Origin: a virus
Reading direction: 5' to 3' (one strand)
Virus record (IMG/VR): IMGVR_UViG_3300043409_001391
Location: 1-46,202 of that record
DNA length: 46,202 bases
In this document: piece after piece, positions 1,245 to 19,868 of the stretch
How the letters are laid out: each line of letters starts with the position of its first letter
Position numbering within the stretch: position 1 is the stretch's first letter
Translations under genes and position numbers: made by a program
The notes under the pieces: generated by a model
The model's input: the letters and a program-made list of their open reading frames with translations, nothing else
Told to the model about the DNA's origin: nothing
Database searches by the model: none

Positions 1245-4200
1245 ATGGGTAATCCTTGGGATGATGATCCTATCGTTGCAACGGTCGAGGCCGAACCGCC
1301 TCCTCCGTGGTTGTCCGACCCTATCGTCGCGACGGTTGTGGGCGAGGCGGATCGTCCGTCAATCCTACCTCCACAGGCGCCGCCTGAATCTGAGATGGAG
1401 AATGCGATACCGCCTATTCAGGACACTCGCATTCCAGCATTGGACCTCCCTCAGTTTCAGATGCTGCGAAAAAAACAGGAGCAAAAACAGTTTGAGTACA
1501 ACGAGAAAATTAAGGGTGCAACGTCAAGCATCATCACTAATGCCTCGTTTTTGCACGCGCAGGAACCGATTAAACCGGACGAAGGCGAAACGGTAGGACA
1601 TGCGGCAGGCAAGCGGTTTATGAATGAAGTCGTGCCGATGCTACGGAAGGCGATCCCAGGTTACGAAATTAACGAACCGGACTTTAAGCTCTATACTGAG
1701 CAGTATATCGCCTTAGCGAAAAAGCCAGGCCCGATGGCGAGGGTTGAGAAGACCGCCAATCAAATGATCAATAACCCTGGGGAGCTTTACGGTCGCAAGG
1801 GCGAGGACTTCCAGACTACCGTTGGGTCTTTCTCTCAGCACCAAAAAGATCTACTGAATAACCTTATTCAGGCGCAAACAGTGCATAGAGATCGTGGTGT
1901 ACTTGGTTCTATGGCCGAGGGCATAAGGCGCGGTAAAGATGACATGTTAGATAATATCATCCAATCTTGGATGTCATTGACGGGGTCTGAGCAGAAGGAA
2001 GACTTTGCCGCCCTCAGAGGTGCCATGGCTGTGGGGCAAGCGAAAGACACGACGTTTGGTAAAGGCGCTGGTCTGGTCGAGAGAGGCGCGCACTCTGTTG
2101 TGGAAATGGTTCCGGTTCTGGCAGCGGGCATAGCGGCCGGGGTGCTTGAACTCCCTTACTGGGTATCACAGGGAGTGCCACTAGCGGAAGATACGATGCG
2201 CGACATTGGGATTCCTGAAGGTTATTTGCGAACATCTATGGCCCTCGCCGCGGCAGTACCTTATGCCCTCATTGAAAAGCTTCAGCTTACGCAATACGGC
2301 AAGGTAGTGCAGGGGGAGGCACTTGAGGCCGCGAAAAAGGGGAGTGTTGAAGCACTTGCGGCTGGAGTAAAAAAACTAGGCATCCGCGAGGGGTTGAAGT
2401 CGGGATTAAAAGGCGCAGGCCGACTCGGCGTGACGGCTACAACAGAGTTTATAGAAGAACTGCTTCAGGACATCACAATTCGCACGACTAAATACGCGGC
2501 GGCATACATTCATGACAAGAAAATAGATGGATGGAAGGAAGCAGAGGATTGGTCTAAAAACACTATCGAGACAATCGTGCCGGTCTTGATGCTGACCGGG
2601 GGCGCGAAGGGTCTTAATATTGCGTCACAGAAAACCGAACAAGGCATGGCGTGGGCAAAAAAGTGGGCGGGTTCAAACCCCAGTGAGGCTAAACTCCTCG
2701 CTGGGTTGGAGCAACCCTCTCGCAATGACTTTAAGAAGTTGGGCATTTCTGAACAGCTTACGAGCGAAGAGCGCGCTGGTTTAGCGGCAAACGTGCGAGA
2801 GGCTCTTTTGTCCGGTGGCGAGGTGTTTGGCCAGACCTCTCAGGAGATGGTTCGGGGCGGGGAGGTGTTCGGCAGCGACCAGGCACCTGTCATTCAGCAA
2901 GCCCCCATAGAGACTGAAGAAGACGCCTACCAAGCCATGAAGCAGCGGTTCGATCCGGCCCCTGAGATTGAAGAGGGCGCCACCGAGACTCCGCCGTGGA
3001 TTGGGATGGCGTCCAAAGTTACGCCTTTGGGCGACGTTGCTGCCGTAGCAGACCAAGACGCCTACCAAGCAGAGCAGGACGCCTACCAGAAGATGAAGCG
3101 GTCCGGCAAACTCCCGAAGGCCACCCCGCAAGAGCCCGTTAATGCGAATGTCCGATCATTAGGCCAGGTGACGTCAGAGGACGACCGAGCCCAGATCGCC
3201 AAGGGAAAGGAGATTGACGCCCTTCTTAAACCTCTCTACGAGATGGAGGCGTCGCTACCGCCCCAGGTGAAGGACAAGGTTGCCGGCGCGGTAAACAAAC
3301 ACCTGTCCACGGAGGCGATCCAGAATAACGACGTGGAGGGCATTACCGAGGGCGTCAAGGGCCTGAACCGGGAGTTGGGCCTCGAGATTGACGAGGGGGC
3401 AGACCCGAAGCGAGAGAGGAATCGCCTTCTGGCCATAGCCAATAAGTTCGATATTCCGCACACCAAGGGCAAGTCCCTTCTGGGCGTGGCGAAGACGATC
3501 AAGGCTTTCTGGAAGGACAAGGGGTATTTGGTGGCAGGGCCAAAGGCCCAGGCTAAAGCGGAGGCGATGGCGAAGACTGCTGCCGAAACCGAAGCAGTGG
3601 AGACCGCCGAAGCGAAGGCTCTCTACGAGTCGAAGGTCCAGCGGGTGGGGAACCTTCCAGACCGCGCTGGTGGAGTGGACGCCACTGTTCGACCACTGAG
3701 TGAGGTTTCGGCACCTGAGGCACCACCTCCTACTCCTGCGGCGCCGCCGCCGGCACCACTGCCGAAGTCCCCTCCAGCGGTAACGGTAAAGTCCAAGGGC
3801 CTGAAGAGTCCTGGGACGCCCAAAGTCGGCGAGGTGTTTGCCACAGAAACCGTGGGAGATCGTAAATACGAATACGCCATTATTGCCGAAAAACATCCAG
3901 ACACCTCTCACTCCACTTACAAAGTAGGCATGAGATCTGTCGGAAGTACGCAGGATTTCGAGTCCGCGGGCACGGGAGGTGGAGTTGGAACACAGGCCGC
4001 GCTTGAGAGGTTTATCGCGCATAACGTTGCGCGTGGAAAAGAAATTGAGAGTTCAAATGAAAAGGTGAAGGCGTTATTCGCAGAAGAGAAACTCAGGATT
4101 GAAAAGATCGAGGCCGAAAAGACGGAGAAGCAAAGAGCCGAGGAACTGAAGCAGGCGAACGAGAAGGCCGAGCAAAACGCATGGGAAACCCATTTGAAAT

Positions 4201-7200
4201 CCATACCCTTAAAGGGCAAGAAGGGTGAGGTGCGTATAAAGGGTGAAGGATTAGATACCGCCGTGCAAGGCACGATCTACGGGGACTTTGCAATCATAAA
4301 GAACACAGACGCAAAGCCTGTATTCCCGTACAGAATAACCCACATTCCTACCAGATTGAGCGTGATGAAGAACCTATCTCGCGAAAAGGCGCAGAACATT
4401 ATCAAGGCTATTCACGATAGCGGGGTTAATACCAGTTGGAGTAGTCACGATGACGCGCCATCTGGCGCCACTGAAACCATGGCGAATATTGTGCGATCTG
4501 TTGCGGGTAATGCCATTCCGCGATACTTTAAGGACCGGACCGCTGTGAAGTCCGAGGTTCAACCGGCGCCGGTTGAGGCCAAGGGCGAAGCGAAGGCCGC
4601 GCCCAAGCCCACGGCCGCATCCAAGGCCAAGGTTAAGCCAATCGAGATACCTGGGATCAAAGACATACCGGCGCCCAAGGCCGAACCTGTTGTCGATAAG
4701 GAGGATGAATCGCCGAAGGATTTGCACGATAGGAATTTTCACCAAAAGATGGTCGATGAGTACAGGCACATATTCGAGGGAGATTTGCCGGCGAGGGTCA
4801 GGGGTGGTTTGCCTGCAATGTCTATGGGGCACTTGAATATCAAACCAATCAAGGCCACTGTTAGCAGGAATAAATCGAAGGTGGATAGCCTGAGTAATAT
4901 CATGTCGAAAGAGCAGGGGCGTTACGCAATTAATGGCGTGTTCCACGACGCCACGGAAAATAGATTGGTCGCTACTGATGGGAAAAAGATTGTCGTCCTT
5001 GAGGAGAAAATCGAGGGTGAGAGTCGCACCGTAAACCCGAAAACCAACGAAACTCTTGATGGCATCTTTCCAAAGTGGCAAACAGTCATCCCAAAATCGT
5101 ATGACACCTTTCCAATCGATGCAAAAACCCTACATGAGGCGGCAAATGGGGCGCTGAAGGCCGGCAAGCTTCAAAAGGAACCTTCGATCTTCATGCTGAT
5201 AAAAGGGCCAGGGAAAAATGTCCTCGTTAATCCACAGGAGTTAGTACCGGTTTTGCAAGTGCTTCGAGAGCAGGGCGCGGAACAGGTTGGAATCGGGATC
5301 GCCGGAAGCAAGTATACCACAGCGCTAGTATTGACTCACAAAAAAAATATCGCTGTCGTCCTGGGGATTTCGTCAGAAGCCAAAGGTAACGATTATGGTT
5401 CACGAGTTGAATTCGACATAACAAAAGGCGACGTCATTAAGAGAGTCGATGAAGGCCCTCGGGTTGAGGCCAAGGTCGAGGAGAAAGCGCCGGATGACGT
5501 GAAACACAAGATTCACGTTGTGAGGGTAAACGGCGGCGAGATTAAGGACGCGTTCCCCGGGGCGACCGTCGAAAGGGCAGCAGACGGCAAATCTTGGTCG
5601 GTTACCCTACAAGGCGGGGGCAATTTTAGGGTCGAACTGCGCAGTGATATCCCCGTGGATGTCCCCACGATCATGTCCACCTACGACGTCTCTCGAAAAG
5701 AGGCTGAGAAGATGGCCGCAGAGGGTGCGGCCGGGGCCGTCCAGTCCGCTGGGATAGAGATCTCCCTCTCGGACGGCAAAACATACACCCCTGAGAAAAT
5801 AATCGCCCTATTCGATCCAGACAAGGCGGACAGGGGTACTGTGCGGCATGAGGCCCTCCATTTAGCCAAGAAGCTTGGCCTGTTCGACACCCCAGACGGC
5901 AAACGCATCTGGGGCGCCCTATCCCTGGAGTACGGCAGCGAGGAAAAGATCGCCAATGCACGCGAGGCGTGGGAAGGCCAGGATGGCCTCTGGCAGAGGA
6001 TCCGGCAATGGGCCTCTGTCTGGTTGGCCAAGCTCGGGTTCGATTTGGACCCCGATGTCGCCATGGCCGAGACGTTTTCAGAGAGATTTTGGTCGCAAGG
6101 CGGCGGGTTGGGACCCAGTGGGGTCAGATACAGCCTGCGGAAGGAAGTCGCCCTAACGTCCATCAAGAACGACGTGGTCGAGGAACTCAGGCGCCAGCGC
6201 GGTGAGGGGGAGCTCGATGGTGTCGTTCCCGAGGTGGCGCAGCAGTGGTTAGATGATGCGGTTTCCACTCTAGCACTGGACAATAATGCTGGCAATCGTC
6301 TGGTAACAGAACTCGACGGCAACGCCAGGATTCTGAGCCCCCGGGAGACGGCACTGCTTCAGATGTACTACCGAAGTGCCACCAATAACTTCGAACGGGT
6401 GTCTGAGGCCCTGTTTACTGCCGATAGGGGCGGTGATCCGGTCAAGATCGCCCAGGCCCAAATCGATGCAGACCTTCAGATGGCCCTACTAGCCAAGATC
6501 GAGGAAGTGGCTCAGAAGGCAGGCTCTGAATGGGGCCGTGCCGGTGTTGCACGCCAGATTGTCCTGGCCAAAGACTTCTCCATGGGCGCAATGGTCCGCA
6601 AGATGCGCGTGGCGAATGGCGGCAAACAACTCTCGACGGACGATCTGAAGGCGATCTCCAAACAGGCCGAGACGATTAAGCGCTTAGAAGGACGCCTCAA
6701 GGAGATGGAGGCAGCGGCAGCAGCGGCCGAGATGAAGCCTATTGTCGCGCAGCAGATTGCCGAGGACATCAAATCCTCAGAGGCGTCCAAGCCGAAGTCC
6801 AAGGGCGCGAAGGTTAAAACGAAAAAGGCTGAGGCGCTGTTGAAGATCAAGAATCGATGGGAGAAGCTCGGGAACATCTTTACTGAAGTGGCGGAAAAGC
6901 CCGATGTCGCGGCAAGTGGCATGAAGTTTCAGTTGAAAGCGGGCGACACCAGGACGTCTGACGAAAACATTGATCCAGTGCTGTACGAAGCCGCAAAGGA
7001 ACTGGCTGAGGTCTATATCGACGACGGCATGACCAACGCATCGGCATTCTGGAATGTCGCGAAGCAGCACCTGGGAACCAACGCCTCACAGGCTGAATCG
7101 ACATTTCGTAAGGCGTGGTCCGATGCGGCCGCGGCAGAGGGGGTCGAGGCGCCCGAATTGGGGTTCGATGATCCACGCGCCATGACCCGAGAGGCGCGGA

Positions 7201-9713
7201 TGATTCAGCGCCAACTTGTAGACGCAGGGATGACGGATCATAAACAGATTCTAAATGCGGTCCACGAGGCTATGCAAGACTCCATCCCTGAACTTACCCT
7301 CAAAGACACGATGGCCATCCTGAGCGCCTACGGGCAATTTACGCCAGTATCGAAAGATGATGCCGACGTCCTCATCCGAGACATGAATGGGCAGCTACTG
7401 GAATTATCCAAGCTAGAGGCGCTTTCAGAGGGAGAACCTCTACAGAAAACAGGCCAACAGCGCCCTGAACCAACCCAAGACCACCGGCGATTGATCCAAC
7501 AGGTGTACGAAGCGAAAAAACAGGCTGGGTATGGTCTTGTGACGGCTAAAACAGCCATCAACCACAGGATCGAGGACCTGAATTGGGAGATTAAACATGA
7601 ACGGTTAATCGTAAAAAACAGAACCGAGATGGTGGTTGACGCGGAGTTGATGGAGAAACGCAAGGAACGTGACGAGTTACTGAAACTGCGCAGGGAAATC
7701 ATCCCAGCTAAGAAGGCCACCGATGAGCAGAAGATCGCTGCGTTAATTCGTTGGCATGATAAAGCCATTGCTGACCTTACGGCCAAACTCGAAGCCGGCG
7801 ACATCAGCCCCAGGGCGAAGGGCAAGCCCCTGTCCTCGCTGGAACTGGACGCCGCCCGCGCCGACCTAAAAGCATTACGGGCTCAGCGACAGGCTCTCAG
7901 GGACTTGGCGAATCCGAAGAAGACCAAAGAGGAACGGGATCGATCGAATTACGAGGCCAATCTACGTCGGCGAATCGCAGACTACACCCTTCGGAAAAAG
8001 GAGCAGGACTTTGAGAGGAAACCGAAAGAGCCACGCAAGTTGTCCAATGATGAGATGAAGTTGAAGCGGCGCCTTGAGGAGACCAAGCAGGAGTTTTTAA
8101 GGGCAGCGGGGTTGAAGAAGCTCGAAAATATGAGTCCTGCTGAGAGGACTTTGAATTACACGGCGGAAACGATGTATGTGATGCGGGCTATGATGACGTC
8201 CTTCGACGTTTCGGCCGTATATCGGCAGGGCGGGGCAGTTGTTGCCGCGCATCCCCTCCTCGCGAAGAAGGCGTATGCTGAAATGGCAAAGGCTATGGTC
8301 AGCAAGCAGGCCAACTTCAAGTCAGCGGAGGACATTCGTAATGACCCGCTTTACCAGTTTTCTGTGACAGTAGGGCTGAGTATATCGGATGAAAATGGCG
8401 ATATTGTAAGACAAGAGGAGATTAACCAGGGTCGATGGGCGAAGAGGGTCCCTGGGGTCGCAGCCAGCGGCCGGGCCTACGCAACTTTCCTGAATAACAT
8501 CAGATTCGGCTTATTCAAGCTGCTGGTTGCAAACATCGGCAAGAACGGGCAGGTGACGGTGGCTGAAGGGAAGGTTATCGCAAACTACATCAACGTCGCC
8601 ACAGGTCGCGGTGATTTCAAGGCCCTGAATAAGGCCGCAGCAAATCTGAACCACCTCTTCTTCGCCACCCGCTGGGTTGCCTCGCGATTCCAATACATGG
8701 TTATGCCTGCGTATCTGCCCTTCACAAAGACATCTTGGCGCGTAAAAAAAGCTATCGCCAAAGAATACGCCAGGACCTTCACGGGCGCATGGGCGTTCGC
8801 CGGAACGCTGATGGCGCTGGGCTACCTCGCCGCTGGCGATGACGAAGAAGAGAAACCGACGATGTCGTTCGATCCGAGGTCGTCAGACTTTTTAAAGATC
8901 AAAATCGGGGAGACAAGGATAGACCCGTTCTTCGGGTTGCAGCAAGCTTTGGTTGTGTCTGCGAAACTCGCGACCGGCGAGAAGGCAAACTCAGACGGCA
9001 AGGTTGTCAGCCTGACCGAAACGAAAGGGTATAACGCTGATACGCGACTGACTGTTGGTGCAAAATTCTTGCGAACCAAACTGGCTCCAATCCCTGGGGC
9101 CATAGTCACCGCCGCAGACGATATGACCGACGTTGTTGGCCGGAAGCACACACCATTCTCGCTCGGCAGATCATTGGTTACGCCGTTGTCCTTCGGTGAA
9201 GTCGCGAACTCGATCGAAGCCCAGGGAGTTCCAAAGGGAACGGCAATCTCGATACTGACCCTTCACGGCGTAGGAGCCGGTACATACGGCCCCAGGACAC
9301 GATATCTAGCGGGCTCCGAAGAGGAAAAGGCAAAGCAATTCAAAAACGATTTAACGAACGCCGAGTGGAACGACAAACCTCTGGCGTACTCGGACCAGAT
9401 GACCGAGGAAATGCTGAAGAAATACGACGTGGCCAAGCAGAAACACGGCGGGCGAATGCTCTACTACCTCACGCTCGATAAGCCTGATCTGAAGGCATAC
9501 ACAAAGAGGTATAAGGATAAAGACGACGCGAAGGACAGATTTGAAGATGCTTTGAAAGAGTGGGATGGCAAGCAGGCGCGGGCGCTAGAATCGCTGAAGG
9601 GATTCCCAAAGGCAGACGCAAAAGATTACTTGCGCCTATATCGAAAAAGCCTTGGGTATAAGGCAGCAGTCACGAACAGGGACATCAACGCGATTTTTAA
9701 GAAGATCGATTGA
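1245..9713 (+). CDS. Giant polyvalent / DNA-ejection protein with sliding-clamp-like and zincin-like regions
   Basis: 2822 residues, the largest gene here. The N-terminus carries two copies of a DPIVATV motif in a Pro-rich stretch. Hydrophobic segments near residues 282-312 and 330-346 could span a membrane. Residues about 540-900 form a Pro/Glu/Ala-rich linker. Residues about 1196-1390 resemble domains 2-3 of the bacterial beta clamp (ATDG at 1243-1246, DGIFPKWQTVIPK from about 1272). HEALH at 1535-1539 fits a zinc metallopeptidase, followed by Glu-rich helices. Coiled coils lie around 1790-1830 and 2080-2250. The C-terminal 500 residues include an aromatic/basic stretch (from 2472) and a hydrophobic helix near 2510-2527. 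Very large multidomain proteins of this kind occur in phages as polyvalent proteins or as ejected internal virion proteins. Expression with the late genes and membrane segments favour an ejected virion protein. No RNA polymerase motif was seen. Confidence 0.85.
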   Translation: MGNPWDDDPIVATVEAEPPPPWLSDPIVATVVGEADRPSILPPQAPPESEMENAIPPIQDTRIPALDLPQFQMLRKKQEQKQFEYNEKIKGATSSIITNASFLHAQEPIKPDEGETVGHAAGKRFMNEVVPMLRKAIPGYEINEPDFKLYTEQYIALAKKPGPMARVEKTANQMINNPGELYGRKGEDFQTTVGSFSQHQKDLLNNLIQAQTVHRDRGVLGSMAEGIRRGKDDMLDNIIQSWMSLTGSEQKEDFAALRGAMAVGQAKDTTFGKGAGLVERGAHSVVEMVPVLAAGIAAGVLELPYWVSQGVPLAEDTMRDIGIPEGYLRTSMALAAAVPYALIEKLQLTQYGKVVQGEALEAAKKGSVEALAAGVKKLGIREGLKSGLKGAGRLGVTATTEFIEELLQDITIRTTKYAAAYIHDKKIDGWKEAEDWSKNTIETIVPVLMLTGGAKGLNIASQKTEQGMAWAKKWAGSNPSEAKLLAGLEQPSRNDFKKLGISEQLTSEERAGLAANVREALLSGGEVFGQTSQEMVRGGEVFGSDQAPVIQQAPIETEEDAYQAMKQRFDPAPEIEEGATETPPWIGMASKVTPLGDVAAVADQDAYQAEQDAYQKMKRSGKLPKATPQEPVNANVRSLGQVTSEDDRAQIAKGKEIDALLKPLYEMEASLPPQVKDKVAGAVNKHLSTEAIQNNDVEGITEGVKGLNRELGLEIDEGADPKRERNRLLAIANKFDIPHTKGKSLLGVAKTIKAFWKDKGYLVAGPKAQAKAEAMAKTAAETEAVETAEAKALYESKVQRVGNLPDRAGGVDATVRPLSEVSAPEAPPPTPAAPPPAPLPKSPPAVTVKSKGLKSPGTPKVGEVFATETVGDRKYEYAIIAEKHPDTSHSTYKVGMRSVGSTQDFESAGTGGGVGTQAALERFIAHNVARGKEIESSNEKVKALFAEEKLRIEKIEAEKTEKQRAEELKQANEKAEQNAWETHLKSIPLKGKKGEVRIKGEGLDTAVQGTIYGDFAIIKNTDAKPVFPYRITHIPTRLSVMKNLSREKAQNIIKAIHDSGVNTSWSSHDDAPSGATETMANIVRSVAGNAIPRYFKDRTAVKSEVQPAPVEAKGEAKAAPKPTAASKAKVKPIEIPGIKDIPAPKAEPVVDKEDESPKDLHDRNFHQKMVDEYRHIFEGDLPARVRGGLPAMSMGHLNIKPIKATVSRNKSKVDSLSNIMSKEQGRYAINGVFHDATENRLVATDGKKIVVLEEKIEGESRTVNPKTNETLDGIFPKWQTVIPKSYDTFPIDAKTLHEAANGALKAGKLQKEPSIFMLIKGPGKNVLVNPQELVPVLQVLREQGAEQVGIGIAGSKYTTALVLTHKKNIAVVLGISSEAKGNDYGSRVEFDITKGDVIKRVDEGPRVEAKVEEKAPDDVKHKIHVVRVNGGEIKDAFPGATVERAADGKSWSVTLQGGGNFRVELRSDIPVDVPTIMSTYDVSRKEAEKMAAEGAAGAVQSAGIEISLSDGKTYTPEKIIALFDPDKADRGTVRHEALHLAKKLGLFDTPDGKRIWGALSLEYGSEEKIANAREAWEGQDGLWQRIRQWASVWLAKLGFDLDPDVAMAETFSERFWSQGGGLGPSGVRYSLRKEVALTSIKNDVVEELRRQRGEGELDGVVPEVAQQWLDDAVSTLALDNNAGNRLVTELDGNARILSPRETALLQMYYRSATNNFERVSEALFTADRGGDPVKIAQAQIDADLQMALLAKIEEVAQKAGSEWGRAGVARQIVLAKDFSMGAMVRKMRVANGGKQLSTDDLKAISKQAETIKRLEGRLKEMEAAAAAAEMKPIVAQQIAEDIKSSEASKPKSKGAKVKTKKAEALLKIKNRWEKLGNIFTEVAEKPDVAASGMKFQLKAGDTRTSDENIDPVLYEAAKELAEVYIDDGMTNASAFWNVAKQHLGTNASQAESTFRKAWSDAAAAEGVEAPELGFDDPRAMTREARMIQRQLVDAGMTDHKQILNAVHEAMQDSIPELTLKDTMAILSAYGQFTPVSKDDADVLIRDMNGQLLELSKLEALSEGEPLQKTGQQRPEPTQDHRRLIQQVYEAKKQAGYGLVTAKTAINHRIEDLNWEIKHERLIVKNRTEMVVDAELMEKRKERDELLKLRREIIPAKKATDEQKIAALIRWHDKAIADLTAKLEAGDISPRAKGKPLSSLELDAARADLKALRAQRQALRDLANPKKTKEERDRSNYEANLRRRIADYTLRKKEQDFERKPKEPRKLSNDEMKLKRRLEETKQEFLRAAGLKKLENMSPAERTLNYTAETMYVMRAMMTSFDVSAVYRQGGAVVAAHPLLAKKAYAEMAKAMVSKQANFKSAEDIRNDPLYQFSVTVGLSISDENGDIVRQEEINQGRWAKRVPGVAASGRAYATFLNNIRFGLFKLLVANIGKNGQVTVAEGKVIANYINVATGRGDFKALNKAAANLNHLFFATRWVASRFQYMVMPAYLPFTKTSWRVKKAIAKEYARTFTGAWAFAGTLMALGYLAAGDDEEEKPTMSFDPRSSDFLKIKIGETRIDPFFGLQQALVVSAKLATGEKANSDGKVVSLTETKGYNADTRLTVGAKFLRTKLAPIPGAIVTAADDMTDVVGRKHTPFSLGRSLVTPLSFGEVANSIEAQGVPKGTAISILTLHGVGAGTYGPRTRYLAGSEEEKAKQFKNDLTNAEWNDKPLAYSDQMTEEMLKKYDVAKQKHGGRMLYYLTLDKPDLKAYTKRYKDKDDAKDRFEDALKEWDGKQARALESLKGFPKADAKDYLRLYRKSLGYKAAVTNRDINAIFKKID

Positions 9714-10165: not shown

Positions 10166-10548
10166 CGCCATGCTCCGTCCCCCTGTGCGACAAGGAGAGG
10201 TTCAGCCGGGGGCTGTGCCGGGCGCATTATATGCGGTGGTGGAGGACAGGAGACGCTCTGCGAGGTGTCAAGGACCGCCTCCTGGAAATATACGACACGG
10301 AGGCCGACATGAGCGCCGAGTACATGATGCGGTGCGAACTCCTACTGTGGGAGGATGCCCTTATCTGCACCGCGGGTCTTCGAGTGAGACTCAGGATCAA
10401 GAAAAATATCGTGGAGCTTCAGAAGAGGCTCAACGAGTTCGACGAGAAACCAAAAAGGAGAAATTATGTCAAATCAGTTGCAGGTGTCCCAACCCCAACC
10501 CCAACCCCAACCCCAGTTCCAGGAGATCCGCCCGTACTCTGCGGGTGA
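10156..10548 (+). CDS. Small putative zinc-binding protein, unknown function
   Basis: 130 residues from the ATG at 10156, which overlaps the previous stop. The N-terminus (CSVPLCDKERFSRGLCRAHY) has a C-x4-C ... C-x2-H pattern followed by MRWWRTGDAL, a zinc-binding module that I know from many small phage proteins, some linked to HNH nucleases. No HNH catalytic core follows. The middle is helical and basic. The end reads through a CCAACC repeat as PTPTPTPT and overlaps the next gene by 83 bases in another frame. An earlier in-frame start at 10108 is unlikely because it lies deep inside the HTH gene. Confidence 0.55.
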   Translation: MPLTPCSVPLCDKERFSRGLCRAHYMRWWRTGDALRGVKDRLLEIYDTEADMSAEYMMRCELLLWEDALICTAGLRVRLRIKKNIVELQKRLNEFDEKPKRRNYVKSVAGVPTPTPTPTPVPGDPPVLCG

Positions 10549-11644
10549 GATTGTCTCGCAGGTGCGGACGATTCAGGAGGTCCTGGAAGCGGTCATGACG
10601 TCCGGCACCCACTATGGGACCATCCCTGGTTGCGGAGAAAAGCCCGTTCTATTTAAACCAGGCGCGGAAAAGATTTTAACGACGTTTCGGATTGCTTGCC
10701 GGCCAGAGGTCGAAGACCTTTCCACCTCCGACGAGAGGCGGTATAGGGTCACCTGCCGCGGGATCACCCCCAATGGCCTGGAGGTTGGCGCTGGAGTTGG
10801 AGAAGCATCAACAAACGAGGAAAAATTTAAATGGCGGAAGGCCATCTGCGACGAGGAATGGGACGCCACTCACGAGGACCATAGACGGGAAAAGTGGGGA
10901 AAGTATCAAGGTAAGGCTTTCAGCACGAAGCAGGTGCGAACCAACCCCGCGGATTTAGCCAACACAGTGCTGAAGATTGCCAAGAAACGGTCGATGATCG
11001 ATTTGTGCCTGACGGCAACCGCGGCCAGCGACGTTTTCGACCAGGATCTTGAAGACCTCCCCGCCGAGATTGTCGAGAATTTAGCTGGAAAAAACCAACC
11101 TACAGTTAAACAACCGGCCAGAAAGACACCTCCGGTGAAGGCCGCGCCAAAGCCCACTCCCAAAGCCGCGCCAACTGTCGATCCAATCGCGGAACCATCC
11201 GCGGGATCACCCCCAATGGCCTGGAGGTTGGCGCTGGAGTTGGAGAAGCATCAACAAATGAAGGCCGCGCCAAAGCCCACTCCCAAAGCCGCGCCAACTG
11301 TCGATCCAATCGCGGAACCATATGACGACGAGACCGGCGAGGTCCTCGTAGACCTGAGTGCAGAGGGCGTTGAAATCCCCGAAGACGACCTGGCGGGCAT
11401 GAACATCCCGTCGCCCGAGGATCTGGCGAAGTGGCAGACGGCCCAAGGTGTAATCAAGGCTGTCACCGACAAGCCCGCGAAAACCGGCGGGAAACGGTTT
11501 GGCGTGTTGATAGATGGAACCTGGTACGGATCTTTCAATGAGTCCTTGGGAGCTTATGCCCAGCGCCTGAAGGGGGCCACTGTAATCCTCTGGTATGAGA
11601 GTAGCGGTGAGTTCAAAAACTTCATGTGGCTCAGAGAGGCTTAA
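10466..11644 (+). CDS. Putative phage recombination / ssDNA-annealing-type protein
   Basis: 392 residues, ATG behind AAAAAGGAG. A Gln/Pro repeat N-terminus precedes a globular region at about 20-210 (THYGTIPGCGEKPVLFKPGAEK), a pattern I know from an uncharacterised phage family often encoded beside RecB/Cas4-like nucleases, as here. It may be a single-strand annealing protein, but that is inference. Residues about 212-290 are a Lys/Pro/Ala linker enlarged by a duplicated block (see the repeat entries at 10756-11321). The C-terminal ~70 residues (GKRFGVLIDGTWYGSFNES) look like a small separate beta domain. The nuclease starts 1 base after its stop. Confidence 0.5.
   Translation: MSNQLQVSQPQPQPQPQFQEIRPYSAGEIVSQVRTIQEVLEAVMTSGTHYGTIPGCGEKPVLFKPGAEKILTTFRIACRPEVEDLSTSDERRYRVTCRGITPNGLEVGAGVGEASTNEEKFKWRKAICDEEWDATHEDHRREKWGKYQGKAFSTKQVRTNPADLANTVLKIAKKRSMIDLCLTATAASDVFDQDLEDLPAEIVENLAGKNQPTVKQPARKTPPVKAAPKPTPKAAPTVDPIAEPSAGSPPMAWRLALELEKHQQMKAAPKPTPKAAPTVDPIAEPYDDETGEVLVDLSAEGVEIPEDDLAGMNIPSPEDLAKWQTAQGVIKAVTDKPAKTGGKRFGVLIDGTWYGSFNESLGAYAQRLKGATVILWYESSGEFKNFMWLREA
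10756..10815 (+). repeat. 60-bp block copied exactly to 11199-11258
   Basis: This 60-base stretch codes for part of the globular domain (around GITPNGLEVGAGVGEAST). An identical copy lies at 11199-11258 in a different reading frame of the same gene. Identity covers all 60 bases and stops sharply at both ends. Confidence 0.95.
11136..11198 (+). repeat. 63-bp direct repeat, copy 1, flanking an inserted block
   Basis: The 63 bases here recur exactly at 11259-11321. Both copies encode KAAPKPTPKAAPTVDPIAEP in frame. The period is 123 bases (41 codons), so the duplication keeps the frame. Confidence 0.95.
11199..11258 (+). repeat. Out-of-frame copy of 10756-10815 between two direct repeats
   Basis: An exact 60-base copy of the upstream block sits between the two 63-base repeats. 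It is read here in another frame, giving AGSPPMAWRLALELEKHQQ, which has no relation to the domain encoded by the source block. Confidence 0.95.
11259..11321 (+). repeat. 63-bp direct repeat, copy 2
   Basis: Second exact copy of 11136-11198. After this point the protein continues with an acidic stretch (DDETGEVLVDLSAEG). Confidence 0.95.
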
Positions 11645-11645
11645 C

Positions 11646-12194
11646 ATGCTCGAATTTGTGCCAGAAACACATACGTACTGGTGGGATGGGGAGTGGGTTC
11701 CATCGGTGACGTCAATTATACAGGCGGCGCGACTTGTGGACGACACTCACTTCACCGCGTTTGCGCGGGATAGGGGCACGGCCATTCACGCGGCGATTGA
11801 GTACGACATCGCCGGGGACCTGGACGAGGGCACGGTCGATCAATGGTGCCTGCCGTATGTCGAGCAGTTCCGGCACTTCAGGGCTGACACCAAAATACGT
11901 ATCCTAAGGTCGGAGTGCCGCGTGTACTCCAAAAAATACCGATACGCGGGGACTTTCGACCTGTACGGGGTCGTGAATGGTAAGCGAATCATCATCGACA
12001 TCAAAACGGGGACAGTCCCGAGAACAGTTGGGATGCAGACAGCGGCCTATTTCCAGGCCGCTAAAGAGCAGCGGTTGCGACCACAGGCGCGGTACTACCT
12101 GCACCTCCAACCGGAATGGTACAAACTCCGAGAGTGTAAAGATCCGATGGACCTTGAGAGGTTTTTGGACGCGTTGGCCGCGTTCTATAAATAG
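11646..12194 (+). CDS. RecB/Cas4-like PD-(D/E)XK nuclease
   Basis: 182 residues from the ATG at 11646, directly after the preceding stop. Motifs of the superfamily are in order: GTAIH (44-48), E90 in the SECRVYS strand, AGTFDLYG with D105, IIIDIKTG with D118 and K120, and QTAAYF with Q131 and Y135. Family members are Mg-dependent DNA exonucleases, in phages often paired with a recombinase in the manner of lambda Red. The putative annealing protein immediately upstream supports that pairing. It lacks the four cysteines of the iron-sulfur cluster found in true Cas4. Confidence 0.8.
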   Translation: MLEFVPETHTYWWDGEWVPSVTSIIQAARLVDDTHFTAFARDRGTAIHAAIEYDIAGDLDEGTVDQWCLPYVEQFRHFRADTKIRILRSECRVYSKKYRYAGTFDLYGVVNGKRIIIDIKTGTVPRTVGMQTAAYFQAAKEQRLRPQARYYLHLQPEWYKLRECKDPMDLERFLDALAAFYK

Positions 12195-12207
12195 AGAGGA
12201 GACTCAC

Positions 12208-12690
12208 GTGGAATTGCCTGACACCCATGATGTTGAGGTGCAAAAGAATAATCTAGTCAATGTGATCCTCAATACAGCGATCACGAGCCAGCAATCGTTG
12301 GATGTCGCAGCGGTCATCCTACAGCAGGCGCGCGACATGAAGGACGAGATCGAGGCGACGTTTGGCGAGGTGCGACAGGCGGCGCACGGCACCCACAAGG
12401 CCGTTATGGCGGCACAGAAGAAACACCTGGACCCACTTCTCGATGCCGAGAAAATGCTTCGTGAGAAGATCTGGGCCTTTTTGGACGCGAATCCAGGCGC
12501 CGAGGCTCCTGGCGTCAGTATGATTGATTCCTGGGATTACGAGGTCGTAGACGAGGCGAAGGTGCCGCGCCTCTATATGACGGTTGACACGACAAAGGTC
12601 ATGAAGATCGTGAATAGTTTAGGTAAAGACACGAATATTGCTGGGATCAAGGTGAAACAAAAGGGAACACTGATGGTGAGGAAAGCATGA
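12208..12690 (+). CDS. Conserved-type phage protein with coiled coil, recombination neighbourhood
   Basis: 160 residues starting at GTG (12208) behind GAGGAG. Residues about 40-110 are a long helix or coiled coil (ARDMKDEIEATFGEVRQAAH). The C-terminal part (WDYEVVDEAKVPRLYMTVDT, then GIKVKQKGTLMVRK) matches a pattern I recall from small phage proteins next to recombination genes, whose role is not established. Its TGA overlaps the ATG of the resolvase gene, pointing to coupled translation. Confidence 0.6.
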   Translation: MELPDTHDVEVQKNNLVNVILNTAITSQQSLDVAAVILQQARDMKDEIEATFGEVRQAAHGTHKAVMAAQKKHLDPLLDAEKMLREKIWAFLDANPGAEAPGVSMIDSWDYEVVDEAKVPRLYMTVDTTKVMKIVNSLGKDTNIAGIKVKQKGTLMVRKA

Positions 12691-13061
12691 TGAAATTCAC
12701 CATACCAGGTAATCCGCAAGGGTATTACGCACAGGGCGCACGCAGCAAGTGGAAGATGAGCGCAAAGCAGCGTGAGAGGACCGAGAAGTATCGGGCCTAT
12801 CAGCAACTGGTGAGGATATTCGCCGGGCAACATTTGAAGCTGCCGCTTAAGGCCACGCGAAATTCGCCTGTCTACATCGGAACGGTTAGTTATTTCCGAA
12901 ACGGGGTACACTGCGACCCTGGGAATGTGCAAAAAGGCATCTGCGATGCGCTGTTTTTGGGCGGATCAGGCGATAAATACACGGCGGGCTGGTTCGACTC
13001 CCCGCGCTACGACAAGGACAATCCGAGGGTCGAGGTCGAGGTTCGTTTTGTGGATGTTTGA
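12687..13061 (+). CDS. RusA-like Holliday-junction resolvase
   Basis: 124 residues from ATG-ATG overlapping the previous stop. The start KFTIPGNPQGY and the pattern HCDPGNVQKGICDALF followed by GDKYTAG fit the RusA family, in which aspartates in D-x2-N-x2-K-x3-D and a later Asp bind Mg2+; here these are D77, N80, K83, D87 and D96. RusA proteins are about 120 residues and cut four-way junctions. A role in resolving replication or recombination intermediates fits the nuclease and annealing-type protein upstream. The gene ends one base before the CRISPR-repeat-like element. Confidence 0.75.
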   Translation: MMKFTIPGNPQGYYAQGARSKWKMSAKQRERTEKYRAYQQLVRIFAGQHLKLPLKATRNSPVYIGTVSYFRNGVHCDPGNVQKGICDALFLGGSGDKYTAGWFDSPRYDKDNPRVEVEVRFVDV

Positions 13062-13098
13062 GTTATTCGCCCTCCACACAGAGGGCGGGGATTGAAAC
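13062..13098 (+). CRISPR. Solitary CRISPR-repeat-like unit (37 nt), not an array
   Basis: This 37-base element begins with GTT and ends with GGGATTGAAAC. It contains a perfect 7-base-pair stem (CGCCCTC at 13068-13074, GAGGGCG at 13081-13087) with loop CACACA. The size, central hairpin and ATTGAAAC end match type I and III CRISPR repeats, whose last 8 bases form the 5' handle of the crRNA. No second copy was seen nearby, so there is no array. Phages carry single repeat units of this kind, some of which act as RNA anti-CRISPRs. It fills the gap between the RusA-like gene and the next start codon (13107). A chance hairpin remains possible. Confidence 0.5.
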
Positions 13099-13106
13099 GA
13101 GGAAAC

Positions 13107-13511
13107 ATGAAAGAGCGCGTGCTGTACTTTATACTGGGGACCCTGAGCGGGTGGGCTATCTCTACGATTCTCCCCCCCGGTCGATTCGAGGTAGTCGTAC
13201 CACCTGCCAGGGTCACAGTGGTACGGGTGATCGAGGAGAAATTGGTGGTCTCGGACGTGTACCAGGGTGGCGTAACGATAGTGAACGAGGTCGCCCCGAC
13301 CCCAGTAACTATTTCGAGCCCGGTCGTCAACTTGGGCGCCACGTCCGTCGAAGCGAAGTTTCCGGCGATAAAGATCGTCCTGGCGCCAGATGGTGGCGTT
13401 ATCGAGCGGGATCACGAAGCTGATCGAGTTCGAGAGGGCATGGAGCGGTTCAGGCAGAGCATGGGACTTGATGCGAAGGGCGAGATGCTACCGCCGCCGA
13501 AGGGGGAATGA
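13107..13511 (+). CDS. Small membrane-anchored protein, unknown function
   Basis: 134 residues from the ATG at 13107 behind GAGGAAAC. The N-terminus (VLYFILGTLSGWAISTIL, residues about 5-22) is one membrane anchor. Then follow beta-rich repeats with many Val and Pro (VVVPPARVTVVRVIEEKLVV) and a charged C-terminal helix. The likely topology has the bulk of the protein outside the cytoplasm. It lies between the CRISPR-repeat-like element and the Lar-like gene, so a part in defence evasion or superinfection exclusion is possible but unsupported by motifs. Confidence 0.6.
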   Translation: MKERVLYFILGTLSGWAISTILPPGRFEVVVPPARVTVVRVIEEKLVVSDVYQGGVTIVNEVAPTPVTISSPVVNLGATSVEAKFPAIKIVLAPDGGVIERDHEADRVREGMERFRQSMGLDAKGEMLPPPKGE

Positions 13512-13994
13512 ATGAGCGACCATGAAAAGCCATGCCCGTTTTGCGGGAGTGACGACCTCGGTATTGGGCAGGGAGCCGAATACCCAGAGGGCCAATCTAC
13601 CTACGTGTTCTGCGGAACATGCGGAGCGCAAGGGCCGTGGATATATACCAGGGATACGGGGTCGGATGTGGCGGTGGCATGTGAGGCGACAGGCTGGAAC
13701 AAAAGGCCCGACCCCGATTTGGTCACGAAGCCAACTTCGTTACCAGAAGGCCCTCCCCGCGCAAATGCGGAGGCCGTGGCCATGCTCTGGAGGTTGTCTG
13801 GCCTAATGGGTGAACTGGCGGGGCGGACAGCCGAGGAGGCCAACGAAGCATTCGACAAGGGTGACTACCACGACGAACTGTTTGGCGAGGCTCGGGCGTA
13901 CCGGGCGTGCAAAAAGAGGATCGAGCAGGAGATTAGATGGCTGGAAGGCGCAACCGAAGAAGCAAGCCAGGGTACGCCCGAGACCTGTTTTTAG
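13512..13994 (+). CDS. Lar-family restriction-alleviation protein
   Basis: 160 residues. The N-terminal 65 residues match the Lar pattern: PCPFCGS (C8, C11), a short beta stretch, FCGTCGAQGP (C34, C37) and ending in GWNKRP, a small zinc ribbon. Lar proteins of Rac prophage type modulate host type I restriction and modification and protect incoming DNA. The C-terminal ~90 residues (ELAGRTAEEANEAFDKGDY) are helical and not part of the minimal Lar domain. The ATG lies directly after the previous stop, so it is in the same operon. The family assignment is fairly secure; anti-restriction activity in this host is inferred. Confidence 0.75.
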   Translation: MSDHEKPCPFCGSDDLGIGQGAEYPEGQSTYVFCGTCGAQGPWIYTRDTGSDVAVACEATGWNKRPDPDLVTKPTSLPEGPPRANAEAVAMLWRLSGLMGELAGRTAEEANEAFDKGDYHDELFGEARAYRACKKRIEQEIRWLEGATEEASQGTPETCF

Positions 13995-14003
13995 AAGGGG
14001 GGC

Positions 14004-14270
14004 ATGATGCGCGTCACGACACGATTTATCAGCCAAAAACATTCTGGGACGGACGTTTTCTGGCGAGCAAAAGAGGGCTGGTTTGCGGCAAAGGATAAAG
14101 AAATAGCGAAGAAGATGGATGATGCTTACGTGTACGGCCTTAAGGCCGATATCGAGTGGGAATATCGCGGACACAAACATATCGTAATGTCGATCACGCT
14201 CCATGATGAGAAAATGATCGATAACAACTCAGTCGGCGGAACGATGACGCCGAATTGGACGGGAGATTGA
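14004..14270 (+). CDS. Small hypothetical protein
   Basis: 88 residues (87 if the second of two adjacent ATGs is used) behind AAGGGGGG. Composition is mixed alpha/beta (VFWRAKEGWFAAKDKEIAKK, IEWEYRGHKHIVMSITLHDE). No motif is recognised. It sits two bases before the next gene in the operon with Lar-like and zinc-ribbon proteins. Confidence 0.55.
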   Translation: MMRVTTRFISQKHSGTDVFWRAKEGWFAAKDKEIAKKMDDAYVYGLKADIEWEYRGHKHIVMSITLHDEKMIDNNSVGGTMTPNWTGD

Positions 14271-14272
14271 AT

Positions 14273-14563
14273 ATGGGAACGGATCAGGACTGTAATAACT
14301 GCGCGGACTGCGGAGGCCCGTCAATGGTTATTATGGACACATCTAACGATTGGTTGTGTGTGCCATGCCTGGACAAACGAGTGGGCGCGTATGCCGATCA
14401 GGCGGGCGAGGAGGTGGTTACGCTGCGGGATCGGTTCGCTATCGCGGCAATGCCCCTGTACATTCCAGGCGGTCCGATAGGAATGGCTACTTTGCCGGAA
14501 TATGCACAGAAATGCTACCTACTAGCAGATGCAATGATGAAAGCGAGGAAAGAAAATGGATAA
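14273..14563 (+). CDS. Small zinc-ribbon protein with C-terminal phage-typical helix
   Basis: 96 residues from the ATG at 14273 behind GGGAG. Four cysteines in CADCGG and CVPC form a likely zinc ribbon. The C-terminus (RDRFAIAAMPLYIPGG ... YAQKCYLLADAMMKAR) follows a pattern I have seen in many small phage proteins, where an RD-x-F-A motif is followed by a Y-x-x-A-D-A-M helix; no function is known. It overlaps the next gene by 8 bases. Confidence 0.6.
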   Translation: MGTDQDCNNCADCGGPSMVIMDTSNDWLCVPCLDKRVGAYADQAGEEVVTLRDRFAIAAMPLYIPGGPIGMATLPEYAQKCYLLADAMMKARKENG

Positions 14564-14924
14564 TCAAAATTTTAAGCCCTTAAGCGCCGAGGAATTTATA
14601 ACGTTTGTGGATGCGTGGCAGGACTCCGAAAATAAGGACATCGGCGCGGAGATGGCAGGACGGATATTGCTCACTACCGCAATGCTGGGTACGCGGGCGC
14701 AAAATATCGAGGAACTGCTGATTTGTGCCGTGATGGCTGGCGCACATAGACTGGGCGAATGGGGGGCGATGCTTTCCATACCCAAAACCGTACTGACGAA
14801 TATGCCCGAGGGCACACAACTGGCCATCTCAGAGATATCAATACCGCCCACGATTGAGGTGCGCGTGCATTTGCCCAAGAAGCCAATCGTGATAGCGCAA
14901 GACTTCAGGAGGAACGGAATATGA
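14556..14924 (+). CDS. Hypothetical protein
   Basis: 122 residues from ATG inside the preceding gene's last codons. The first 75 residues look helical (AEEFITFVDAWQDSENKDIG, LLICAVMAGAHRLGEWGAML), and the rest is a beta-rich tail (ISIPPTIEVRVHLPKKPIVI). No recognised domain. The stop overlaps the next ATG by 4 bases (ATGA), typical of coupled translation. Confidence 0.55.
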   Translation: MDNQNFKPLSAEEFITFVDAWQDSENKDIGAEMAGRILLTTAMLGTRAQNIEELLICAVMAGAHRLGEWGAMLSIPKTVLTNMPEGTQLAISEISIPPTIEVRVHLPKKPIVIAQDFRRNGI

Positions 14925-15553
14925 GTATCGAAACCCTGGTCGCGATGATCCCCAAAAAACTGCAATTGTCTGTAGCATTCCACCACAAATGGACGCAATT
15001 CCTGGCGCACCGGGGCGCGCTAAAACACGCCGCGGAATTGGATTGGTCGCCCGAATGGGGGCGGCGCACATTGCGCAGACTATCCACACTCGGCATTCGA
15101 CCGGCCACGGAAATGTTAACCGAAACTATCCAGTCCGGCGCCGCTGAACCTCGCACAACACGTGCAATTCGCCTGGAAGATGATTTCGAGGACGAGGACG
15201 AGGAAATAGACGAGGACGAGGAAATACCTGTTGGAGGCGCAGCGGACGCGGTTTTGCCGCCCGTCCAGGGCGGTGATGGGCCGCTATTGGCCACCGCGAA
15301 GGCCATTTACGCCCTCTACCCACGCCACGAGGGGTATAAACCGGCGATTGTCGCCATCTGTGACGCCCTACAGACCGCTCCGGCTGAGGTTTTGGCCAGC
15401 CTGACGAGGCGATATGCACAAAGCAGACTCGTGCGAGAGGGGCGGACCGAGATACCCCTGCCGGAAAAATGGTTCAAGGACGAGATGTATCTGGACGATC
15501 CCTTAGACTGGGAAGGAATCGAAAACACAACCAAACAAACGGAGGATGAATAA
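14921..15553 (+). CDS. Protein sharing a C-terminal domain with the replication initiator
   Basis: 210 residues. A helical N-terminus (about 1-75) is followed by a strongly acidic linker (FEDEDEEIDEDEE, about 88-102). Residues about 125-195 have the pattern AKAIYALYPRHEGYKPAIVA ... TRRYAQSRLVREG ... PLPEKWFKDE-YLDD, which mirrors the C-terminal part of the replication initiator at 19865-20881 (EIYDAYPKKVGRGAALKAI ... TKAYAKSALVK ... FLPHASTWYNQDRFLDD). It may therefore bind DNA or take part in replication. The family name is not recognised. Confidence 0.6.
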   Translation: MSIETLVAMIPKKLQLSVAFHHKWTQFLAHRGALKHAAELDWSPEWGRRTLRRLSTLGIRPATEMLTETIQSGAAEPRTTRAIRLEDDFEDEDEEIDEDEEIPVGGAADAVLPPVQGGDGPLLATAKAIYALYPRHEGYKPAIVAICDALQTAPAEVLASLTRRYAQSRLVREGRTEIPLPEKWFKDEMYLDDPLDWEGIENTTKQTEDE

Positions 15554-16032
15554 TGCCAGCATACGAAAAATTAACGTGGAAAACGCGAATGGATTACGCC
15601 ATCCAGATAATGGCCGGCATGATGGCAAACGACCGCGTTTTTGGACCCCACGATCAAGATTTACGGACATCACCTATTTTCGACCAGGCGATCATGGCTG
15701 TGGACATGCTTTGGGCGCGTGTTGCCGACGAGCCGGACCGGGAGGTGATCGCAGAGGAAAAGGCCAAACTAGAAAATCTGGAATCCGCCAGGAAACTGCT
15801 CTATGGAATCGGGAAACACAACCCCACGACCCAGCGCGATAAGCTGTTGACCACCGCCGTGCGGGGACTGGTGCGTGAGGCCAGCGATGAGGGCGCCGAT
15901 ATAGATGATGTTTTGCGCGATGCCGAGACACAATCCGGTTTAGAGATGGATGAAATCGAGAGGATTGAGGCGGCTAATGCGAAAATAACGGAGGAAGACG
16001 AAACCCCTGGTGGCGCTCAAGTAGTGTCTTAA
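15553..16032 (+). CDS. Hypothetical protein, last gene of the rightward early operon
   Basis: 159 residues; its ATG overlaps the previous TAA (TAATG). It is mostly helical, with basic N-terminal residues (YEKLTWKTRMDYAIQIMAGM) and an acidic C-terminus (AKITEEDETPGG). No motif is recognised. Its final 59 bases overlap the tail of the serine recombinase on the other strand, a convergent overlap with no space for a terminator between the two operons. Confidence 0.55.
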   Translation: MPAYEKLTWKTRMDYAIQIMAGMMANDRVFGPHDQDLRTSPIFDQAIMAVDMLWARVADEPDREVIAEEKAKLENLESARKLLYGIGKHNPTTQRDKLLTTAVRGLVREASDEGADIDDVLRDAETQSGLEMDEIERIEAANAKITEEDETPGGAQVVS

Positions 16033-18998: not shown

Positions 18999-19868
18999 TC
19001 ACCTCTTCCTTGCCTGTTCTAGGTATGCTTCGATGAAGGCGTGCGCTGCTTGGGCAACGATTGAATTGCCGAAACCCCGCAATCGTCCCACGCGGGCGGG
19101 AGCCCCATGAGCCAGCGGGAATGTGCCGGGTTCAACTGGCCTCCACTGTCCATCCCGGCAGAAGAGCCAATCAGCTGCCATCCAGTGGCCGTTAGTCGGG
19201 CCGGGCCTTGCGCCAGCCATGCCGCGTCCGCAGGATTCAGACCGGGATTCATCCCCCGCCGAATCTTCGCTTCTGGGTCTTCGCCCTTCCCATTGTTCGT
19301 GGTATTCGGCGTCGGCCACCCCGCCAGCTTGACCTGCGATCCGAGCCCCGCCGCGTCCTCGTTCGCAGTCGGACTGAGCCACCCAGTATGCCCGGTCACG
19401 GATGTGCGGCGCACCGACCCCCGCAGACGGAAACGGGACACACCCGAAGGCGTAACCCATGGCTTCCAGGTCAGCGTGTACAAGGTCGATCCAAGGCTCT
19501 GTAGCTTTACTCGCAACCTGCTCTCCAAAGATCGCTGCAGGGCGACACTGCTGGATAAGCCATTGCCACGCGGGCCAAAGGTGCCGCTCGTCAGCAAACC
19601 CTGCGCCTTTGCCTGCCGTGCTGAAAGGCTGGCATGGGCAGGATCCGGTCCAGACGGGTTTGTCGTCGGGCCAACCGGCTTGGCGGAGGGCGTAACTCCA
19701 GACGCCGATTCCGGCGAAGAAGTGGCATTGTCTGTATCCCAGAAGGTCATTTGGCGTGACATCTTCAATACTCCTTTCGTCCACATCGCCTGGTGCGATA
19801 TGCCCTTGTTTTACCAACTCCCTGAGCCAAGCGGCTGATCCCCTATCGATTTCGTTATAGTAGTTCAT
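18999..19868 (-). CDS. DNA cytosine-C5 methyltransferase
   Basis: 289 residues. Motifs are in the usual order: FAGIGVWS (I, from residue 51), GSCPCQPFS with catalytic Cys79 (IV), GEQV with Glu116 (VI), RDRAYWVA (VIII) and GFGNSIVAQ near residue 268 (IX/X). The region between about 165 and 250 is the short target-recognition part, so specificity cannot be read. The enzyme would methylate C5 of cytosine in phage DNA and so protect it from host restriction. The ATG overlaps the replication initiator's stop by 4 bases. Most of the gene is also read in another frame by the gene at 19019-19762. Confidence 0.9.
   Translation of the reverse strand: MNYYNEIDRGSAAWLRELVKQGHIAPGDVDERSIEDVTPNDLLGYRQCHFFAGIGVWSYALRQAGWPDDKPVWTGSCPCQPFSTAGKGAGFADERHLWPAWQWLIQQCRPAAIFGEQVASKATEPWIDLVHADLEAMGYAFGCVPFPSAGVGAPHIRDRAYWVAQSDCERGRGGARIAGQAGGVADAEYHEQWEGRRPRSEDSAGDESRSESCGRGMAGARPGPTNGHWMAADWLFCRDGQWRPVEPGTFPLAHGAPARVGRLRGFGNSIVAQAAHAFIEAYLEQARKR
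19019..19762 (-). CDS. Overlapping gene in a second frame of the methyltransferase
   Basis: A 247-residue frame runs inside the methyltransferase gene on the same strand. Its ATG (19762) follows AAAGGAG at the right distance, a stronger ribosome-binding site than chance would give. The product starts MSRQMTFWDTDNATSSPESA and contains SLSARQAKAQGLLTSGTFG, SLESRL, LGSTLYTLTWKPWVTPSG, GWPTPNTT and NPAHSRWLMGLPPAWDDC. I recall this string of motifs from many database proteins found with phage C5 methyltransferases, which suggests that the second frame is conserved; this cannot be checked here. The product is Ser/Thr/Pro/Gly-rich with no known fold or function. Confidence 0.6.
   Translation of the reverse strand: MSRQMTFWDTDNATSSPESASGVTPSAKPVGPTTNPSGPDPAHASLSARQAKAQGLLTSGTFGPRGNGLSSSVALQRSLESRLRVKLQSLGSTLYTLTWKPWVTPSGVSRFRLRGSVRRTSVTGHTGWLSPTANEDAAGLGSQVKLAGWPTPNTTNNGKGEDPEAKIRRGMNPGLNPADAAWLAQGPARLTATGWQLIGSSAGMDSGGQLNPAHSRWLMGLPPAWDDCGVSAIQSLPKQRTPSSKHT

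Follow-up and report, generated by a model that had tools for sequence, protein, structure and literature searches.

A solitary type I-C CRISPR repeat unit in the early operon of a phage as a candidate RNA anti-CRISPR

Genomic setting of the repeat unit

The sequence analysed here, referred to as the window, is the whole 46,202-nucleotide stretch of an IMG/VR virus record (IMGVR_UViG_3300043409_001391). It encodes a serine integrase-like recombinase, a DnaC-like helicase loader, a terminase and a major head protein, and probably represents a temperate tailed phage. The genes around the unit described below form a tight, co-directional operon of 5.6 kb (10466-16032) which, with gene starts chosen by hand, contains 54 non-coding bases in all, 45 of them in a single gap. 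The features of this locus are as follows:

12687-13061, plus strand: RusA-like endonuclease gene, complete (PF05866, 24.3 bits with a cut-off of 22.8, profile matched to 124/124)
13055-13099, plus strand: extended imperfect hairpin, prediction only, in which 13055-13064 pairs with 13090-13099 in the handle
13062-13106, plus strand: 45-nt gap holding the unit (gene starts chosen by hand)
13066-13098, plus strand: solitary type I-C CRISPR repeat unit of 33 nt, a candidate RNA anti-CRISPR (Racr), located with covariance model R1
13068-13087, plus strand: hairpin with stem 13068-13074 / 13081-13087 and loop CACACA (13075-13080)
13088-13098, plus strand: equivalent of the crRNA 5' handle, 11 nt, GGGATTGAAAC, from alignment to I-C repeats
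13099-13106, plus strand: GAGG Shine-Dalgarno-like sequence directly 3' of the unit, serving the ATG at 13107, read from the sequence
13107-13511, plus strand: gene for a 134-aa protein with a hydrophobic N-terminus (possible membrane anchor), no family match
13512-13994, plus strand: Lar-like restriction-alleviation gene with a CPFCG zinc ribbon (PF14354, 33.1 bits with a cut-off of 28.6; phrog_599, E 1.7e-9)

The initial annotation had described a 37-base element at 13062-13098 that begins with GTT, contains a perfect 7-bp stem and ends in GGGATTGAAAC, and the sequence confirmed these bases exactly as written. The stem is formed by CGCCCTC (13068-13074) and GAGGGCG (13081-13087), with possible outer U-G wobble pairs between 13066-13067 and 13088-13089. 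The interpretation of the element as a CRISPR repeat unit holds and its 5' border does not, since the part supported as a repeat starts at 13066, and GTTA (13062-13065) is without support as a repeat end. The repeat sequence of the unit, given as a reference for comparison with host I-C repeats, is TTCGCCCTCCACACAGAGGGCGGGGATTGAAAC. As RNA, the 37-mer is predicted to fold into a single hairpin (-14.6 kcal/mol, z = -3.0), the 33-mer has a fold z of -4.0, and in a 126-nt context the fold of the unit is unexceptional (z = -1.1).

The neat fit of the element between two operon genes was also borne out, as the unit lies between the RusA-like gene and the ribosome-binding site of the next gene and takes up 33 bases of the 45-nt gap, the only sizeable one in the operon. 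The RusA-like gene stops 4 bases 5' of the unit and is not truncated by it, since its product reaches the end of the Pfam profile. No promoter-like site was found in the 250 bases upstream of the unit, so that its expression would be by operon read-through, as shown for the repeat RacrIC1 with acrIC5 (PMC10651486).

The 134-aa protein has no match in the families searched, and no known acr gene was identified near the unit with general family profiles and PADLOC; for type I-C Racrs, an acr gene within 1 kb is an enriched feature but not a required one. A PADLOC scan of 15 window proteins (five from the operon and ten others) revealed no cas genes beyond a weak Cas4-like match (E 2.5e-4), which is the phage exonuclease encoded at 11595-12194, a protein of related nuclease fold. 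The adjacent Lar gene predicted in the initial annotation is real, with PF14354 above its cut-off. Lar is an anti-restriction and not an anti-CRISPR protein.

Comparison with seven records whose terminase or head genes are related to those of the window (33-56% identity) showed that mainly the virion module and a few other genes are in common. No homologues of the RusA-like, 134-aa and Lar proteins were detectable in these seven relatives, the operon is not common to them, and R1 gave nothing below E = 0.1 in relatives with related terminase or head genes. Searches for relatives via RusA yielded one 30% match and via the 134-aa protein none, while a search for a prophage relative via the major head protein in 695 genomes of two phyla gave no strong match, only weak partial ones of 28-31%. 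The phage that carries the unit is probably temperate and has no close relatives in the databases, and the unit is embedded in an operon and not placed after a promoter.

Some other features of the window were observed. A single open frame at 1245-9713 encodes 2822 aa, which is very large for a 46-kb phage, and part of it, close to the end, matches one relative (G011) at 29%. The product of 14255-14563 is a small zinc-ribbon-like protein with a weak match to the PADLOC candidate PDC-S64 (E 4.8e-5). A DNA methyltransferase gene on the minus strand (18999-19868) is in parts about 80% identical at the DNA level to its counterparts in Salmonella phage epsilon15 and Klebsiella phages; for a phage that otherwise lacks close relatives, this likeness would reflect either recent exchange or strong conservation.

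Assignment of the repeat to type I-C

When 84,980 genomes of bacteria and archaea were scanned with the pattern CCCTCN{3,8}GAGGGCGNGGATTGAAAC, 36 stretches were found, compared with about 0.2 expected by chance according to our own estimate. Many of them form regular arrays in which 2 to 40 units follow one another; GTCGCCCTCCGTGCGAGGGCGTGGATTGAAAC is an example of their repeats. The comparison with CRISPR repeats proposed in the initial annotation thus returned matching repeats in CRISPR loci, the closest array repeat (L018) differing from the unit at 4 of 33 positions. The genes next to this repeat constitute a more distant I-C/I-G-like set with Cas7 below its cut-off, and therefore the nearest repeat alone is no proof of subtype. 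At another locus (L009) three genes adjoining the match are Cas5c, Cas8c and Cas7 of type I-C, all above cut-offs, and Cas5c (TIGR01876) exceeded its cut-off in 12 of 20 genomes with the matching stem and handle versus 1 of 14 control genomes.

Repeats were also collected without the window, in order to avoid circularity. Cas5c was present in 29 of 349 Pseudomonadota genomes, and arrays were read from the Cas5c neighbourhoods; 13 aligned repeats from such arrays made up the covariance model R1, from which the window was excluded as input. With all filters off, R1 matched the window at 13066-13098 over the full model, with 27.4 bits and an E-value of about 1e-5, which is rough because calibration was short, as the tool itself warns; the next-best match in the window had an E-value of 0.27. 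Relative to R1, the stem of the unit contains one compensated change, from C-G to U-A. By its sequence the unit is assignable to subtype I-C, which retains the earlier idea of a CRISPR repeat with its handle and replaces the general 'type I/III' form by I-C specifically. Repeats of 37 nt are present in two I-C loci (L111 and L117).

In sequence and structure the unit agrees with a known CRISPR repeat, and it lies in an intergenic position in a virus, between the RusA-like gene and the next gene of an IMG/VR virus record, as expected of a solitary repeat unit (SRU). A search of the window for a second repeat, whole or degenerate, found none, and GGATTGAAAC occurs there exactly once; the unit is solitary, whereas a viral CRISPR mini-array has at least two repeats flanking a spacer. 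The unit had no Rfam match at the gathering threshold, and the exact 37-mer had no match in IMG/VR, its own record left out. In BLAST searches of the 37-mer, phage matches covered just 54-59% and no plasmid matched, and a 44-base query comprising the unit and flank had no match in E. coli genomes. Spacers of I-C arrays (215 from the arrays of the stem/handle scan and 463 from Cas5c neighbourhoods) gave short or weak matches to the window that are consistent with chance.

Among the cellular genomes, copies of GGATTGAAAC at two loci (L061 and L059) were rejected as repeat units, being without a comparable hairpin. Single copies at five others (L015, L020, L025, L030 and L035) were rejected as phage units, as their neighbours are either ordinary genes of the chromosome or orphan repeats. 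One of these, a lone I-C repeat-like unit in a Dehalococcoidia genome (L025:3756-3783), is located between ilvH-like and ilvC-like genes, directly 5' of an AGGAGG motif. Orphan repeats of I-C form also stand singly in bacterial chromosomes.

Solitary type I-C units in viral contigs

Scanning IMG/VR with the pattern CGCCCN{7,13}GGGCGNGGATTGAAAC yielded 96 stretches, and 80 of these were fetched. Units standing alone among the fetched stretches numbered 72 (66 distinct), with the window counted, and some of their contigs may be fragments or hold host DNA. Far enough from contig ends to be testable were 57 units, and 36 of these lie outside ORFs of at least 100 aa, versus 10.5 expected for positions drawn at random from those contigs. 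For the two base pairs that fall within the searched segment of the stem, pairing is found in 92% and 79% of units, versus 49% and 57% after shuffling; since the pairs are kept above the shuffled level, the hairpin, and not the sequence alone, is conserved in viral units. Solitary units of I-C form are a class in viral contigs, located between genes more often than by chance.

Several other viral units lie directly 5' of a start codon. An identical solitary I-C unit is found in two viral contigs (L154:1926-1953 and L176:6320-6347), in both of which its end coincides with the ATG of a 724-codon frame. Another solitary unit, weaker but still I-C-like (L039:2970-3006; 17 bits, E 0.0018 for that record), is located behind the transaldolase-like gene of a 5.6-kb viral contig that also carries a terminase-like gene.

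A Lar motif was found at a distance of at most 2.5 kb from one of the 66 distinct units, that of the window, and a Lar neighbour is therefore no general feature. The initial annotation had proposed that 13062-13994 could be a counter-defence cassette; as the motif is absent near the other 65 units, a linked cassette with Lar is not supported, and the protein encoded between the unit and Lar matches no family searched.

A candidate RNA anti-CRISPR

The first tests of RNA anti-CRISPRs date from 2023 (Camara-Wilpert et al. 2023, PMC10651486). RacrIC1 is a solitary I-C repeat in a Bifidobacterium pseudocatenulatum prophage, located next to acrIC5; it shares a transcript with this gene and inhibits a type I-C system. 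The mechanism of a dead-end complex is shown there for RacrIF1; for RacrIC1 inhibition is shown, and no description of its complex was found in the sections consulted. In type I-C systems, the crRNAs are products of cutting by Cas5c (Cas5d) and bear an 11-nt 5' handle (PMC5965380), which Cas5c and Cas7 clamp, and a stable Cas5c-Cas7-crRNA complex forms without Cas8c (PMC7684278), so that a repeat in early mRNA should draw Cas5c and Cas7 into a dead-end complex.

The best explanation of the unit, and in our judgement the probable one, is that it is a phage-borne solitary type I-C repeat acting as an RNA anti-CRISPR (Racr). The repeat identity, solitude, operon place and I-C type of the unit are observed, and from these we infer transcription, Cas5c binding, cutting and inhibition. 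The unit would be transcribed within the early-operon mRNA, and in a type I-C host Cas5c would mistake its hairpin for a pre-crRNA repeat and bind it. Cas5c would probably cut at the base of the stem, at a site predicted to lie before 13088, and would then, with Cas7 along the attached phage RNA, be stuck in an unproductive complex. The trapped Cas5c would be missing from Cascade complexes carrying real crRNAs.

In favour of this explanation, R1 selects the site of the unit out of 46 kb, genomes with matching stem and handle often encode Cas5c (12 of 20), the window has no second copy, the unit takes up most of the operon's one sizeable gap, units of this form are a class in viral contigs, and RacrIC1 provides a published precedent. 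The initial annotation's suggestion of a single repeat unit in a phage operon, in the form of known RNA anti-CRISPRs, is supported by R1, by the arrays and by PMC10651486. Against the explanation are the first handle base, which is G, and the predicted pairing of the handle, the lack of a promoter-like site in the 250 bases upstream, the failure to identify a known acr gene nearby, and the lack of a phage match among the I-C spacers examined.

Like RacrIC1, the unit is a solitary I-C repeat located between genes of a phage and transcribed with a protein gene, the last being shown for RacrIC1 and presumed for the window. It differs in having no identified acrIC5 or other acr neighbour and in its handle, which starts with G and is predicted to pair with the 5' flank; its activity is putative. 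The likeness to RacrIF1 of type I-F is that of a single repeat mimic, RacrIF1 trapping Cas proteins in an aberrant complex; this element differs in subtype, in processing by Cas6f rather than Cas5c and in having its own strong promoter (PMC10651486). Viral CRISPR mini-arrays likewise place a repeat of host type in a virus, but their repeats enclose one or two spacers, which mostly target related viruses (PMC11656645), whereas the window has one repeat and no spacer.

The candidate is thus a further example of a published kind and not a new kind. To our knowledge, only one RNA anti-CRISPR of the I-C kind has been tested. The unit may already figure in the candidate list of PMC10651486. It offers a direct way to test if Cas5c can be titrated by a repeat that forms part of a coding mRNA.

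Alternative explanations

A captured repeat could have been retained because it affects the mRNA of the phage itself, with Cas5c cutting the message between rusA and the downstream genes in I-C hosts, or with the long hairpin protecting or insulating the message, and CRISPR inhibition being secondary. This would agree with the position of the unit, immediately preceded by a stop codon and immediately followed by a ribosome-binding site, with a predicted hairpin that spans the rusA stop codon up to the edge of GAGG, and with the viral units lying right 5' of start codons. However, it leaves the precise I-C handle GGATTGAAAC unexplained, and the tested I-C unit does inhibit CRISPR (PMC10651486). 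We consider this explanation unlikely, although it survives best among the alternatives.

Next in rank, and also unlikely, is a functionless relic, either left over as the final repeat from a phage mini-array that has decayed or acquired from a host array by recombination. Single orphan copies away from arrays in bacterial chromosomes (L015, L025) indicate that functionless capture may occur, but the stem and the 10-base handle are intact, no degenerate second repeat flanks the unit, the operon has hardly any other non-coding bases, and paired stem changes are kept across the viral units as a class.

If Cas5c cut the unit and the downstream RNA served as a spacer, the unit could be a functional one-repeat guide, since that RNA would carry an I-C-like handle. 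Such a guide would consist of the phage's own gene start and match its own locus beside the repeat, where a PAM is not expected, and no second repeat bounds the spacer, which makes this possibility very improbable. Least credible of all is a chance hairpin or ordinary mRNA structure resembling a CRISPR repeat, which would suit the unexceptional fold in the 126-nt context but not the E-value of 1e-5 obtained with a model trained elsewhere.

Predicted pairing of the handle

With flanks included, folding predictions place the handle in pairs with 13055-13064, and its mean unpaired probability is 0.17-0.24 over nine flank lengths, compared with means of 0.51-0.66 over the solitary units. This value is the lowest of the 66 solitary units in all settings but one and is below those of all 88 array repeats, and the effect vanishes without flanks. 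Because the pairing was noticed first and tested afterwards, it is given small weight. A G as first handle base is shared by 3 of the 66 solitary units, the window's included, whereas no array repeat listed from the stem/handle scan or the Cas5c neighbourhoods has it.

Either the G or the predicted pairing of the handle could weaken cutting by Cas5c. A more speculative form of the RNA anti-CRISPR explanation, to which we give little credence, is a decoy that is bound but poorly cut, in which the handle would be folded onto the 5' flank (13055-13064 with 13090-13099) and G would occupy the expected cut site. The change of the cut-site base to G would let wobble pairs extend the stem across this site, and Cas5c might be trapped on the early mRNA with the handle not released. 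The predicted pairing of the handle gives the unit a single testable deviation from every array repeat examined.
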